From: Candidatus Methanoperedens sp.
GTDB taxonomy: Archaea > Halobacteriota > Methanosarcinia > Methanosarcinales > Methanoperedenaceae
Assembly (NCBI GenBank): GCA_012026835.1
Contig: VEPN01000002.1
Location: 1-64,000 of the forward strand
DNA: 64,000 nt
Direction of reading: 5' to 3'
The notes beneath the pieces are model-generated. The model saw nothing but the letters and a program-made list of their open reading frames with translations, was not told where the DNA came from and made no database searches. The translations under genes were made by a program, and so were the position numbers. Each line of letters opens with the position of its first letter. The first letter of the stretch is position 1. Positions 54,242-57,935 of the stretch are shown here, piece after piece.

Positions 54242-55285
54242 TCAAATCGTCTTTATCTCAAAACCCTCAAACATTTTTCTCATTATTGTATCCTGGCATG
54301 AGCCAAAACCCGTTGTGGCGATCTTTTTGCCGTTGAAATCATCAAGGGACTTTATATCGGAATCCTTCTTCACCACAAGCGCGGAGCCACCCGTATTCAC
54401 CCCGTTTATTATATGGATTCTTCCATTATCGTTTATCCTGTACCTTAATAGCACCACTGTGCCAAGATTTGCCACGTCCAGCTCCCTGTGCTTGAAGGCA
54501 TCTGTCATTGCGCGACCGTTGCGATACCCCGTAAACTGGATATTTTTTCCTGGTGTAAGTCCGACTTTATCAAAATAACCTTCTTTCTGGGCTATGTACA
54601 TCCCAAGATAATGGATATTGCCTTCAATATATCCGAACCTGAGGCTGCCGTTGGCTGCTGGAGGCATCCATTCGGGGTTTTCTTCCAGTTTATTCCTGGT
54701 TTCTTTGTAATATTTATCAACGAATATGTCGGACAGGAAATCATCAACGTCTTTATACCCGATTGTAGTTACGGGGTTTTTGAAAGCGCCTGCTGTATCC
54801 AGTATCTCAAATCCTTTTTTAGTCTGGTTCAGGTCAGGGAATTCAATATACACAGTATTATCGATCGCCTTGGCCGCCATGCTCCTGTCAAGTCCTGAGA
54901 ATTCCCGGGCATATCCAATGACTTTCTCCCTGTTTGCCGGGTCGTTGATGAACCTCGTCCCTTTTACATGCACCCAGACAAGGGCTTTGATCGTGTCTTC
55001 GTCTTTTATATCATCAGAGATTGCCAGGTCGCATGAAGGATGGTTCTCCCAGGCATCTTTGGAATTAACAAGATACCTGCCAGTACCTTCATATTCAGCT
55101 TTTGCGGGGAAAGGTTCCCATACGATAAAACCATCGATTGTGCCGTTGGCCAGGGCTGCTGACATCTCATTTGCAGTCATGGAAACAACATAAACCGACT
55201 TTTGGGCACGTGATCTCTCATATCCGATAAACCCGGCGGATACGAGTATCAGCACTAATATAAGTATGTAAAAATATTTTCTCAT
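54242..55285 (-). CDS. Membrane-anchored substrate-binding protein with permuted lobe order
   Basis: 347 residues with an N-terminal signal or anchor helix (YFYILILVLILVSAGFIGY). The rest is clearly related to NMT1/SsuA-type ABC binding proteins, but in reversed order. Residues about 33-205 correspond to the usual second half (SMTANEMSAALANGTIDGF, HPSCDLAISD, RFINDPANREKVIGYA). Residues about 213-347 correspond to the usual first half (LRFGYIEGNIHYLGMYIA, NTGGSALVVKKDSDIKSLDD, KIATTGFGSCQDTIMRKMF). Its start overlaps the histidine kinase stop by four bases, so it is probably a ligand sensor for that kinase rather than a transporter part. No permease or ATPase gene is near. Confidence 0.8.
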   Translation of the reverse strand: MRKYFYILILVLILVSAGFIGYERSRAQKSVYVVSMTANEMSAALANGTIDGFIVWEPFPAKAEYEGTGRYLVNSKDAWENHPSCDLAISDDIKDEDTIKALVWVHVKGTRFINDPANREKVIGYAREFSGLDRSMAAKAIDNTVYIEFPDLNQTKKGFEILDTAGAFKNPVTTIGYKDVDDFLSDIFVDKYYKETRNKLEENPEWMPPAANGSLRFGYIEGNIHYLGMYIAQKEGYFDKVGLTPGKNIQFTGYRNGRAMTDAFKHRELDVANLGTVVLLRYRINDNGRIHIINGVNTGGSALVVKKDSDIKSLDDFNGKKIATTGFGSCQDTIMRKMFEGFEIKTI

Positions 55286-57093
55286 AGTACTACCTTTTTC
55301 AATCTGAAACTGAATAAACTACCTTTTCCTGGTTCACTTTCTACACGGATTTCACTCCCGTGGGCTTTTATGATTCCGCTTGATATTGAAAGCCCGAGTC
55401 CGCAGCCACCGATTTTCCTCCTCGATGAGCTATCCACCTGGTAAAATTTATCGAATATCTTATCCAGTTTTTCTTTCCCTATTCCGATACCCGTATCTTT
55501 CATACTTATCATTATACTATCTCCATCATCCTTTGCAGATAGAACTATATTTCCCCCAGGCTGGGTGAATTTCAATGAGTTCTCAAATAGATTATTCAAC
55601 ACGATAATAAGCTTATCCCTATCTGCCATTACAGGAGAAAGCCCATCCGGGATGTCCACTAAAATCGTAATATTTTTTTTCAAAGCGAGCTGGCTGATAG
55701 TCTCAAGCACCACTTTCGAAATTTCATTGATGTCTGTACTATCCAGCTGGAGTTCCAGTTTTCCAGCTTCCATCTTTGAAAGGTCAAGGATATCATTGAT
55801 AAGGCGCGTCTGCCGGTCGATATTCCGGATTATTATCTCCAGCAGTTCTTTCTTTACATCGGTATTCACATTCTCCTGGGATTCAAGAAATTCTGCAGAT
55901 ATCCTGACTGCTGACAGGGGAGTTTTTAACTCGTGCGAGACAAGAGAGATAAAATCGGATTTTAATTCATCGAGTTTTTTTAACTCTTCATTGGCTGCAA
56001 TAAGTTCCCTGTTTTTTTCTTCCAGGTCTTTATTCGCAATTTCGATTTTTGCTTCAAGTTTTTTTCTGATCTCCAGGAGCTCGGAAGCCATCTCGTTAAA
56101 TATGTTTGTCAGTTTGCCTATTTCGTTTCCTGAGGACACGGGGATGGGTTTGAAGTTCCCCTCAACAAGACCGAGAGCCCCGTTCTCCAGGGATTTTATG
56201 GGTTGTGTAAATCTTCTTGAGAAAATAATTGCAAGAAGAACGACTCCCGTAACCGCAAAAGAAGATACCAGGACCATCTGCCGTCCGAGGTTTACAAATC
56301 CCGCATAGGCTTCATCTATATTTTTTTCAACGACAATTCCCCACCTGTAAAGCGGTAACCAGTAGTAGGAAGCCACTACTTTTTCACCCTCATTATTCAC
56401 ATACTCGGCTATCCCGTTCTTTTCATATGTAACTTCTTTTACAGCGAAATTATCCTTGATATTGGTAAGCAGGATCCCGGATCTGTTTTCCTGGAAGATT
56501 ATATCCCCTTTGTTATTGACTATATATACCTTCCCGGATTTACCTACGTCGATACTTTCAATTATTCTGTATAAATTTTCCAGACTCACTCTTGCAGCAA
56601 GGATTCCTTCTATCGTCCCGTTTTTTTTAATAGGGTTTGTAATAATAAGTTCCGGGGAATTTGCAGATTGTGAGAGAAAAACATGGGATATATACAATTT
56701 TCCTTTTGCAGCTTCAGTAAAATAACTCTCATTGGCTCTGTTTCCTGTGCGGGAAAGGGTCGAGAATGTTATATTCCCGCTCATATCGAGTATAAAGAAC
56801 TCCCTGTACACTCCCTGATACTCATTTTCAAATGTTTCCAGATATTCGTCGAGCTGTTTTTTTTCGGTGTAATTGACTATTCTGGACTGGGAAATCACGC
56901 GGATATCATCTTTTCTTGAATCCATCCAGTTATCAATGGCACTTCCTGTATTTTCGGTTGCACCCCACAGGTTTGCAATAACAGAATCGCTGATGGGATC
57001 TTTGCTGTATTCATATGAGAGGTAAACCACAAGGGATAGGGGTATCACTGATATTATCAGGAAAAAGAGTATCAGTTCAGACCTTATGCTCAC
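55282..57093 (-). CDS. Membrane sensor histidine kinase
   Basis: 603 residues. Order: membrane segment (LILFFLIISVIPLSLVVYL), an extracellular dCache sensor of about 240 residues (VSLENLYRIIESIDVGKSGK, VYIVNNKGDIIF), a second membrane segment, HAMP (RRFTQPIKSLENGALGLVEG), a coiled coil, then HisKA SLVSHELKTPLSAVRI with the phospho-His, and HATPase with NNLFENSLKFT and DTGIGIGKEKLDKIFDKFY. All key residues are kept. Lies between response regulator and binding protein in one operon. Confidence 0.93.
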   Translation of the reverse strand: MSIRSELILFFLIISVIPLSLVVYLSYEYSKDPISDSVIANLWGATENTGSAIDNWMDSRKDDIRVISQSRIVNYTEKKQLDEYLETFENEYQGVYREFFILDMSGNITFSTLSRTGNRANESYFTEAAKGKLYISHVFLSQSANSPELIITNPIKKNGTIEGILAARVSLENLYRIIESIDVGKSGKVYIVNNKGDIIFQENRSGILLTNIKDNFAVKEVTYEKNGIAEYVNNEGEKVVASYYWLPLYRWGIVVEKNIDEAYAGFVNLGRQMVLVSSFAVTGVVLLAIIFSRRFTQPIKSLENGALGLVEGNFKPIPVSSGNEIGKLTNIFNEMASELLEIRKKLEAKIEIANKDLEEKNRELIAANEELKKLDELKSDFISLVSHELKTPLSAVRISAEFLESQENVNTDVKKELLEIIIRNIDRQTRLINDILDLSKMEAGKLELQLDSTDINEISKVVLETISQLALKKNITILVDIPDGLSPVMADRDKLIIVLNNLFENSLKFTQPGGNIVLSAKDDGDSIMISMKDTGIGIGKEKLDKIFDKFYQVDSSSRRKIGGCGLGLSISSGIIKAHGSEIRVESEPGKGSLFSFRLKKVVL

Positions 57094-57117: not shown

Positions 57118-57630
57118 TTAGTTTCCAGATCTTCTAAGTACACTTTTTATCCGGGCTTTTAATTCGTTAAGATTGAAAGGTTTTGTTACATAATCATCCG
57201 CGCCTGCTTCCAGGCCTTTTACAGTATCTCTTTTTGTGTCCCTGGCTGTCAGCATGATTATCGGGATATTTTTTGTGAACTCATCTTTTTTTAACCTGGC
57301 GCATACTTCATAACCGTCCATTCCCGGAAGCATCAGGTCAAGAAGTATAATATCAGGTATCTCGGTTCTTGCCTTGTTAATGGCTTCCTGGCCATCAAAT
57401 GCTTCAACAACAAGATAATCTTCCACTTCAAGCGATTTCTTTAATGCTAAAAGCGTATCCATCTCGTCGTCAACTATCAGTATCTTTGATCTTGTATCAG
57501 AGAATTTCCCTATCCGTGCCGCAACTTCTTCCTCAGGTATTCCAAGTATGCGGGATATCTCTTTATTTGATATCTTCTCATCTTTCCCGACCAGTTCAAG
57601 GATTTTATCATCAATAGAATCTTTGTTCAT
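57118..57630 (-). CDS. Response regulator with N-terminal helix-turn-helix-like region
   Basis: 170 residues. The first 45 look like a small HTH (LVGKDEKISNKEISRILG, IPEEEVAARIGKF). A receiver domain follows: ILIVDDEMDTLLALKK, phospho-acceptor in LLDLMLPGMDGYEV, IIMLTARDT and DDYVTKPFNLNELKARI. The order (HTH before receiver) is opposite to bacterial OmpR-type regulators. It should receive phosphate from the adjacent kinase. Overlaps the wHTH gene by four bases. Confidence 0.9.
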   Translation of the reverse strand: MNKDSIDDKILELVGKDEKISNKEISRILGIPEEEVAARIGKFSDTRSKILIVDDEMDTLLALKKSLEVEDYLVVEAFDGQEAINKARTEIPDIILLDLMLPGMDGYEVCARLKKDEFTKNIPIIMLTARDTKRDTVKGLEAGADDYVTKPFNLNELKARIKSVLRRSGN

Positions 57631-57935
57631 CGCTTACCACCCGCATGGTTCAACATGATTTTTAAATCGTTATTGACTTTAAGCAAATATTGTGTCAGTT
57701 CATTTTCCTGGTTTAATTTAAAGACGCGTATTTGCTTTCCAAGAGGCGTCTCTTTTATAATATCCATTTTCAGGAGCGGCTCGATCACTCTTGATACAGT
57801 GGAATGAGAAAGGCCTGTTTCAACAGCGATCCCTGAAAGATACGTGTCTGTATCCTTATTATTGAGCAGGTATTCTAAAACTACGAGTTGTGCGGTTTTC
57901 CCAAAGATTTTTTCAAGAAAATTGGAGGATGGCAT
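57627..57935 (-). CDS. Winged-helix transcription regulator
   Basis: 102 residues. FLEKIFGKTAQLVVLEYLLN starts a winged helix; the recognition part is YLSGIAVETGLSHSTVSRVI followed by PLLKMDIIKETPLGKQIRVF. It is of the archaeal MarR/ArsR-like type. It is the first gene of the sensory operon and may be the DNA-binding output of the two-component pair or an autoregulator. Confidence 0.88.
   Translation of the reverse strand: MPSSNFLEKIFGKTAQLVVLEYLLNNKDTDTYLSGIAVETGLSHSTVSRVIEPLLKMDIIKETPLGKQIRVFKLNQENELTQYLLKVNNDLKIMLNHAGGKR

Follow-up and report, generated by a model that had tools for sequence, protein, structure and literature searches.

Background

Natural circular permutation of a substrate-binding protein (SBP) was described for Tp0684/TpMglB-2 of Treponema pallidum and its relatives, which constitute type Ic or cluster Bc (PMC4990184). 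This seems to be the only other case reported in the open-access literature that was searched, in which neither a permuted SsuA-type SBP nor any permuted archaeal SBP was found. In LuxP-LuxQ and HptA-HptS, a double-PDC kinase is paired with a distinct binding protein (PMC8534201). For Methanosarcina acetivorans, an ssu transporter specific to coenzyme M (ssuA/ssuC) was described (PMC12068725).

The window, a stretch of 64,000 nucleotides from Candidatus Methanoperedens sp. (contig VEPN01000002.1), encodes at positions 54242-55285 a protein confirmed here to be an SBP of SsuA/NMT1 type (class II) with a natural circular permutation. Like TpMglB-2, it is a naturally permuted, membrane-tethered SBP from a group possibly involved in both transport and sensing. 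TpMglB-2, however, has a bacterial type I/cluster B sugar-binding fold whose first-lobe strands were moved to the C-terminus, whereas the present SBP has the archaeal type II SsuA/NMT1 fold, is cut in the second lobe and belongs to a separate sensor clade. It falls outside cluster Bc/type Ic, its matches being type II NMT1/SsuA profiles with no cluster B family reported.

Permuted domain order

The SBP gene, its parts and the other genes of its operon are listed below.

54242-55285, minus strand: circularly permuted SsuA/NMT1-type SBP of the sensor clade, 347 aa (profiles, rejoining, model, tree)
55202-55285, minus strand: N-terminal membrane helix (residues 2-24) and short tether, aligning with the transporter lipoprotein leader but without the cysteine
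54650-55201, minus strand: C-terminal part of the family, placed first (residues 29-212; profile match 28-123), with the WEP and H82 motifs
54245-54649, minus strand: N-terminal part of the family, placed last (residues 213-347), with the GxGxxQD motif
55282-57093, minus strand: histidine kinase with extracytoplasmic dCache, HAMP, HisKA and HATPase domains; its stop overlaps the SBP start
57118-57630, minus strand: response regulator, an AsnC-type HTH followed by a receiver domain
57627-57935, minus strand: small MarR-like winged-helix protein (below the Pfam cut-off), first gene of the conserved operon

The SBP starts with an ATG overlapping the TGA stop of the kinase gene. The 347-aa protein matched PF13379 (E 5e-23) and PF09084 (E 8.9e-11), both above the gathering score. 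According to the Pfam searches, residues 28-123 corresponded to positions 151-248 of NMT1_2 and residues 224-343 to positions 2-116 of NMT1, while the NCBIfam search assigned residues 215-336 to positions 1-120 of TIGR01728. The second half of the family thus comes first and the start of the NMT1 and TIGR01728 profiles last (residues 215-343), as the original prediction had stated.

The colinear domain order of SsuA/NMT1-type class II SBPs was absent from the native chain and appeared only after rejoining, that is, with residues 214-347 placed ahead of 31-213. The rejoined sequence matched NMT1_2 in one stretch (profile 8-248, E 1.5e-26) with 94.2 bits against 82.6 in two pieces, and TIGR01728 in one stretch (1-235 of 290) with 105.4 bits against 96.4 for the native chain. 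The NMT1 score rose from 42.5 to 51.5 bits, so that rejoining raised the score for every main family, and the expectation that joining the C-terminus to the mature start would restore a normal family sequence was borne out. The rejoined SBP also aligned colinearly to SsuA (PDB 2x26) over chain residues 5-180. As read from the sequence, the junction RKMFEGFEIKTI + KSVYVVSMTANEM matched the helix, turn and strand of normal members, with essentially no residues missing or duplicated. The protein therefore shares its family and, once rejoined, its full domain with the SsuA/TauA/NMT1 SBPs (TIGR01728, PF13379, PF09084; 2x26). Apart from its permutation, it differs from them in its low TIGR01728 score, 96-105 bits against the 163.5 cut-off of the SsuA aliphatic sulfonate subfamily, which was reached by neither the native nor the rejoined form.

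Structure prediction had been proposed as a check, and AlphaFold2 modelled the whole permuted chain confidently (pLDDT 88.5, pTM 0.83; 34 sequences in the alignment). Strands and helices alternated as in an SBP; helix 2-24 formed the membrane anchor, strand 30-35 was the first of the domain and 343-346 its last. The chain break lies in the second lobe, between the helix following the GxGxxQD motif and the next strand. The anchored N-terminus thereby emerges from the second lobe, and a linker about 20 residues long connects the old termini. Foldseek, whose comparison depends on chain order, retrieved glutamate receptors and SBPs as best PDB matches (TM about 0.3, rmsd up to about 30); these were uninformative and were not retained as homologs. 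A TM of only about 0.3 to SBPs is expected, since a permuted topology is not colinear in an order-dependent search.

Distribution and search for tandem forms

In most genomes of the genus, the permuted order was present from one end of the protein to the other. The 60 relatives gathered there comprised two permuted groups, one with identities of 50-93% and another of about 30%; named matches of the latter and its kin came from Candidatus Methanoperedens, Methanohalarchaeum, Archaeoglobus, Ferroglobus and Geoglobus. Within the order, the sensor type was present in 28 of 186 genomes. Across the phylum, 26 of 295 genomes gave a strong match, nearly always full-length and colinear with the permuted profile; most of these came from a single family (f9), which the tree placed with Archaeoglobaceae. 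No permuted form was seen on bacterial plasmids, where 164 records matched and none covered 80% of the query. An order conserved over the full protein length in dozens of independent genomes is neither chance nor assembly error.

Splitting all fetched frames by half-profiles yielded 142 permuted (324-400 aa) and 24 normal-order frames, both counts including overlapping loci of the same gene. Tandem intermediates had been suggested as something to look for, and a longer tandem protein in relatives as grounds for abandoning the permutation; no fetched reading frame carried two copies of either half. It is hardly credible that the gene represents part of a longer tandem SBP, or that it is a decay product or assembly chimera merely looking permuted. 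Duplication followed by truncation is the usual route to permutation, and decayed copies do occur in some relatives (L077, L079, L080), but none of the 142 permuted frames from many independent assemblies was tandem and the model was confident over the whole chain. The fragment explanation was consequently rejected. The decayed copies of the sensor SBP consisted of a frame break at L077:1001-2379 and lone C-terminal fragments at L079:5111-5401 and L080:4746-5036.

Phylogeny and direction of change

In a tree of rejoined sequences, a single branch (SH-aLRT 100) divided the 79 permuted rows from the 22 normal ones, and the 31 sensor rows came together in a single clade (support 100). Halves treed separately agreed, the permuted group receiving 88 with the N-terminal and 96 with the C-terminal part, and the sensors 100. 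As permuted rows grouped together in the whole and half trees, one permutation event suffices.

A permease lay downstream in 20 of the 22 normal-order rows. Permuted rows outside the sensor clade had one directly downstream in 45 out of 48, and a histidine kinase in none. Because transporters make up the normal-order relatives and nearly all of the remaining permuted rows, the sensor state is most simply explained as derived; the sensor clade probably goes back to a permuted SBP that served an ABC importer, rather than the other way round. The proposal that permutation was allowed by a sensor freed from transporter constraints was not supported: permuted SBPs also occur in ordinary ABC-importer operons, as one inherited group, so that permutation did not need a sensor role. 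Sensor specialisation was likewise discarded as the cause, the transporter forms being equally permuted. The permuted form, its halves exchanged but its fold retained, was inherited by a broad archaeal group; in some members it serves the import of a compound and in others, such as the present one, apparently its sensing.

Operons of the sensor clade

Sensor operons displayed the order HTH protein, response regulator, kinase and SBP, often adjoined by uvrC. The kinase ectodomain of the window matched dCache_1 (E 5.8e-25), placing it among double-PDC kinases. A histidine kinase lay directly upstream of the SBP in 29 out of 31 sensor-clade rows, and the predicted sensor role is well supported by this context. 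A permease beside the SBP, as expected of an importer SBP, was encountered in none of the 31.

None of the 31 sensors carried the lipobox cysteine of archaeal lipoproteins, which was found at the matching place in practically all permuted transporter SBPs; five of the latter escaped the lipobox regex but displayed a GC motif by eye. The anchor is consequently not a new attachment, as had been supposed: transporter relatives possess an ordinary lipoprotein leader at the same place, and the sensors merely lack the cysteine.

The pocket-type residues H225, D270, G275, N297, Q331, W56, E57, P58, S75, W79, H82 and C85, which are among the most conserved of the transporter forms, were kept in sensors as well. 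This bears on whether the sensor SBP binds any ligand or is only a structural stabiliser of the kinase. The latter would fit a protein that has left the importer and has no named ligand; it is nevertheless quite improbable, as motifs invariant in the transporter forms were equally invariant in the sensor clade.

Two sensor-clade paralogs had no adjacent kinase, namely G000:C26 (L009:8644-9735) and G011:C71 (L056:172-1263). Kinase remains were sought at both loci and none was convincing; regulator genes were still present at L056. Genomes G046 and G058 (f2) carried a permuted sensor SBP, yet a normal-order SBP in their XRE-linked transporter.

Transporter operons and a possible coenzyme M link

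Operons of a permuted lipoprotein SBP, permease and ATPase were found in Archaeoglobaceae, Methanoperedenaceae and other families. Many genomes displayed the same arrangement for permuted and normal SBPs: a divergent XRE-type regulator, then SBP, permease and ATPase. The coenzyme-M SsuABC system of Methanosarcina acetivorans (PMC12068725) likewise couples an SBP of SsuA type to a permease and an ATPase. Next to the XRE regulator, the permuted transporter takes up what seems to be the equivalent operon slot, in which relatives have the normal order.

Permeases of permuted SBPs formed one group (98), while ATPases and regulators were mixed. In G000, G016 and G012 (loci L010, L162 and L163), a normal SBP and permease were accompanied by an ATPase grouping among Methanoperedens permuted operons, and in the first two of these genomes (L010, L162) the XRE regulator grouped with permuted operons as well. 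G000:C54 (L010:6457-9643) presents the normal-order SBP and permease in this mixed arrangement. The single permease group among mixed ATPases and regulators suggests that SBP and permease were exchanged together, and they seem, judging from these sequence groupings, to have moved as a cassette.

These results also bear on whether the permuted sensor-clade SBP is an orphan receptor of an importer encoded elsewhere, merely co-transcribed with a kinase that relies on its own dCache domain for ligand sensing. Its relatives do serve importers and two paralogs persist without a neighbouring kinase, but all 31 sensor-clade members lack both a lipid anchor and a neighbouring permease, and permuted SBPs track one permease lineage. 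Moreover, no permuted transporter SBP of that lineage was seen in the genome of the window, where a normal-order SBP, accompanied by a permease of its own, takes the slot. Such an orphan receptor is therefore unlikely.

In the L146 operon, the genes for the permuted SBP, permease and ATPase follow those for two enzymes that take part in making coenzyme M, cysteate synthase (above cut-off) and sulfopyruvate decarboxylase. From this one operon and from synteny with normal-order transporters, coenzyme M, or some other small sulfonate, is a candidate ligand. The same locus (L146:506-7963) also includes an SBP-like 292-aa protein without obvious signal peptide, and an MtnA-like gene after the run. 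At L147:743-4299, genes for a B12-binding corrinoid protein, a RACo-like and an MtrH-like protein lie just upstream of the permuted transporter, with similar-sized genes at the same place in Geoglobus/Archaeoglobus relatives; with such neighbours, the ligand may differ between lineages.

Proposed function

The preferred reading, to which we assign about three chances in four, is that the naturally permuted SBP acts as a membrane-anchored external ligand sensor for the adjacent dCache kinase. It would be held outside the membrane by its uncleaved N-terminal helix, and its ligand would be small, with coenzyme M or some other sulfonate as candidates. Whether the docked SBP is open or closed would be read by the dCache domain and would set the activity of the kinase, which would then phosphorylate the response regulator of the same operon. 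The likely mode resembles LuxP-LuxQ and HptA-HptS, in which the binding protein senses and the double-PDC kinase reads; by this analogy, the SBP may dock on the dCache domain. Unlike those binding proteins, the present SBP is archaeal, permuted and anchored by its own N-terminal helix, and its interaction with the kinase is presumed. Against this reading, two sensor-clade paralogs persist with no kinase beside them, and the dCache domain of the kinase could also bind a ligand directly.

A broader scenario can be put forward only tentatively. One ancient permutation may have founded a separate class of archaeal type II SBPs together with a co-inherited permease lineage, the two being exchanged as a cassette within an operon for coenzyme M/sulfonate import. 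From this class, a membrane-anchored external sensor of coenzyme M (or a sulfonate) might have evolved in methane-oxidising archaea. The permutation would then set which lobe is tethered, and hence docking.

Implications

Permuted archaeal SBPs were found widely and in conserved form, with one transporter and one sensor branch, and normal-order relatives occupy an equivalent operon slot. This amounts to a natural experiment, in which the effect of chain order and anchor position, if any, on the docking of an SBP to permease or kinase can be assessed. As permuted SBPs score below subfamily cut-offs, their annotation can be wrong. Were coenzyme M the ligand, the sensor branch would point to external sensing of a cofactor of methane metabolism.
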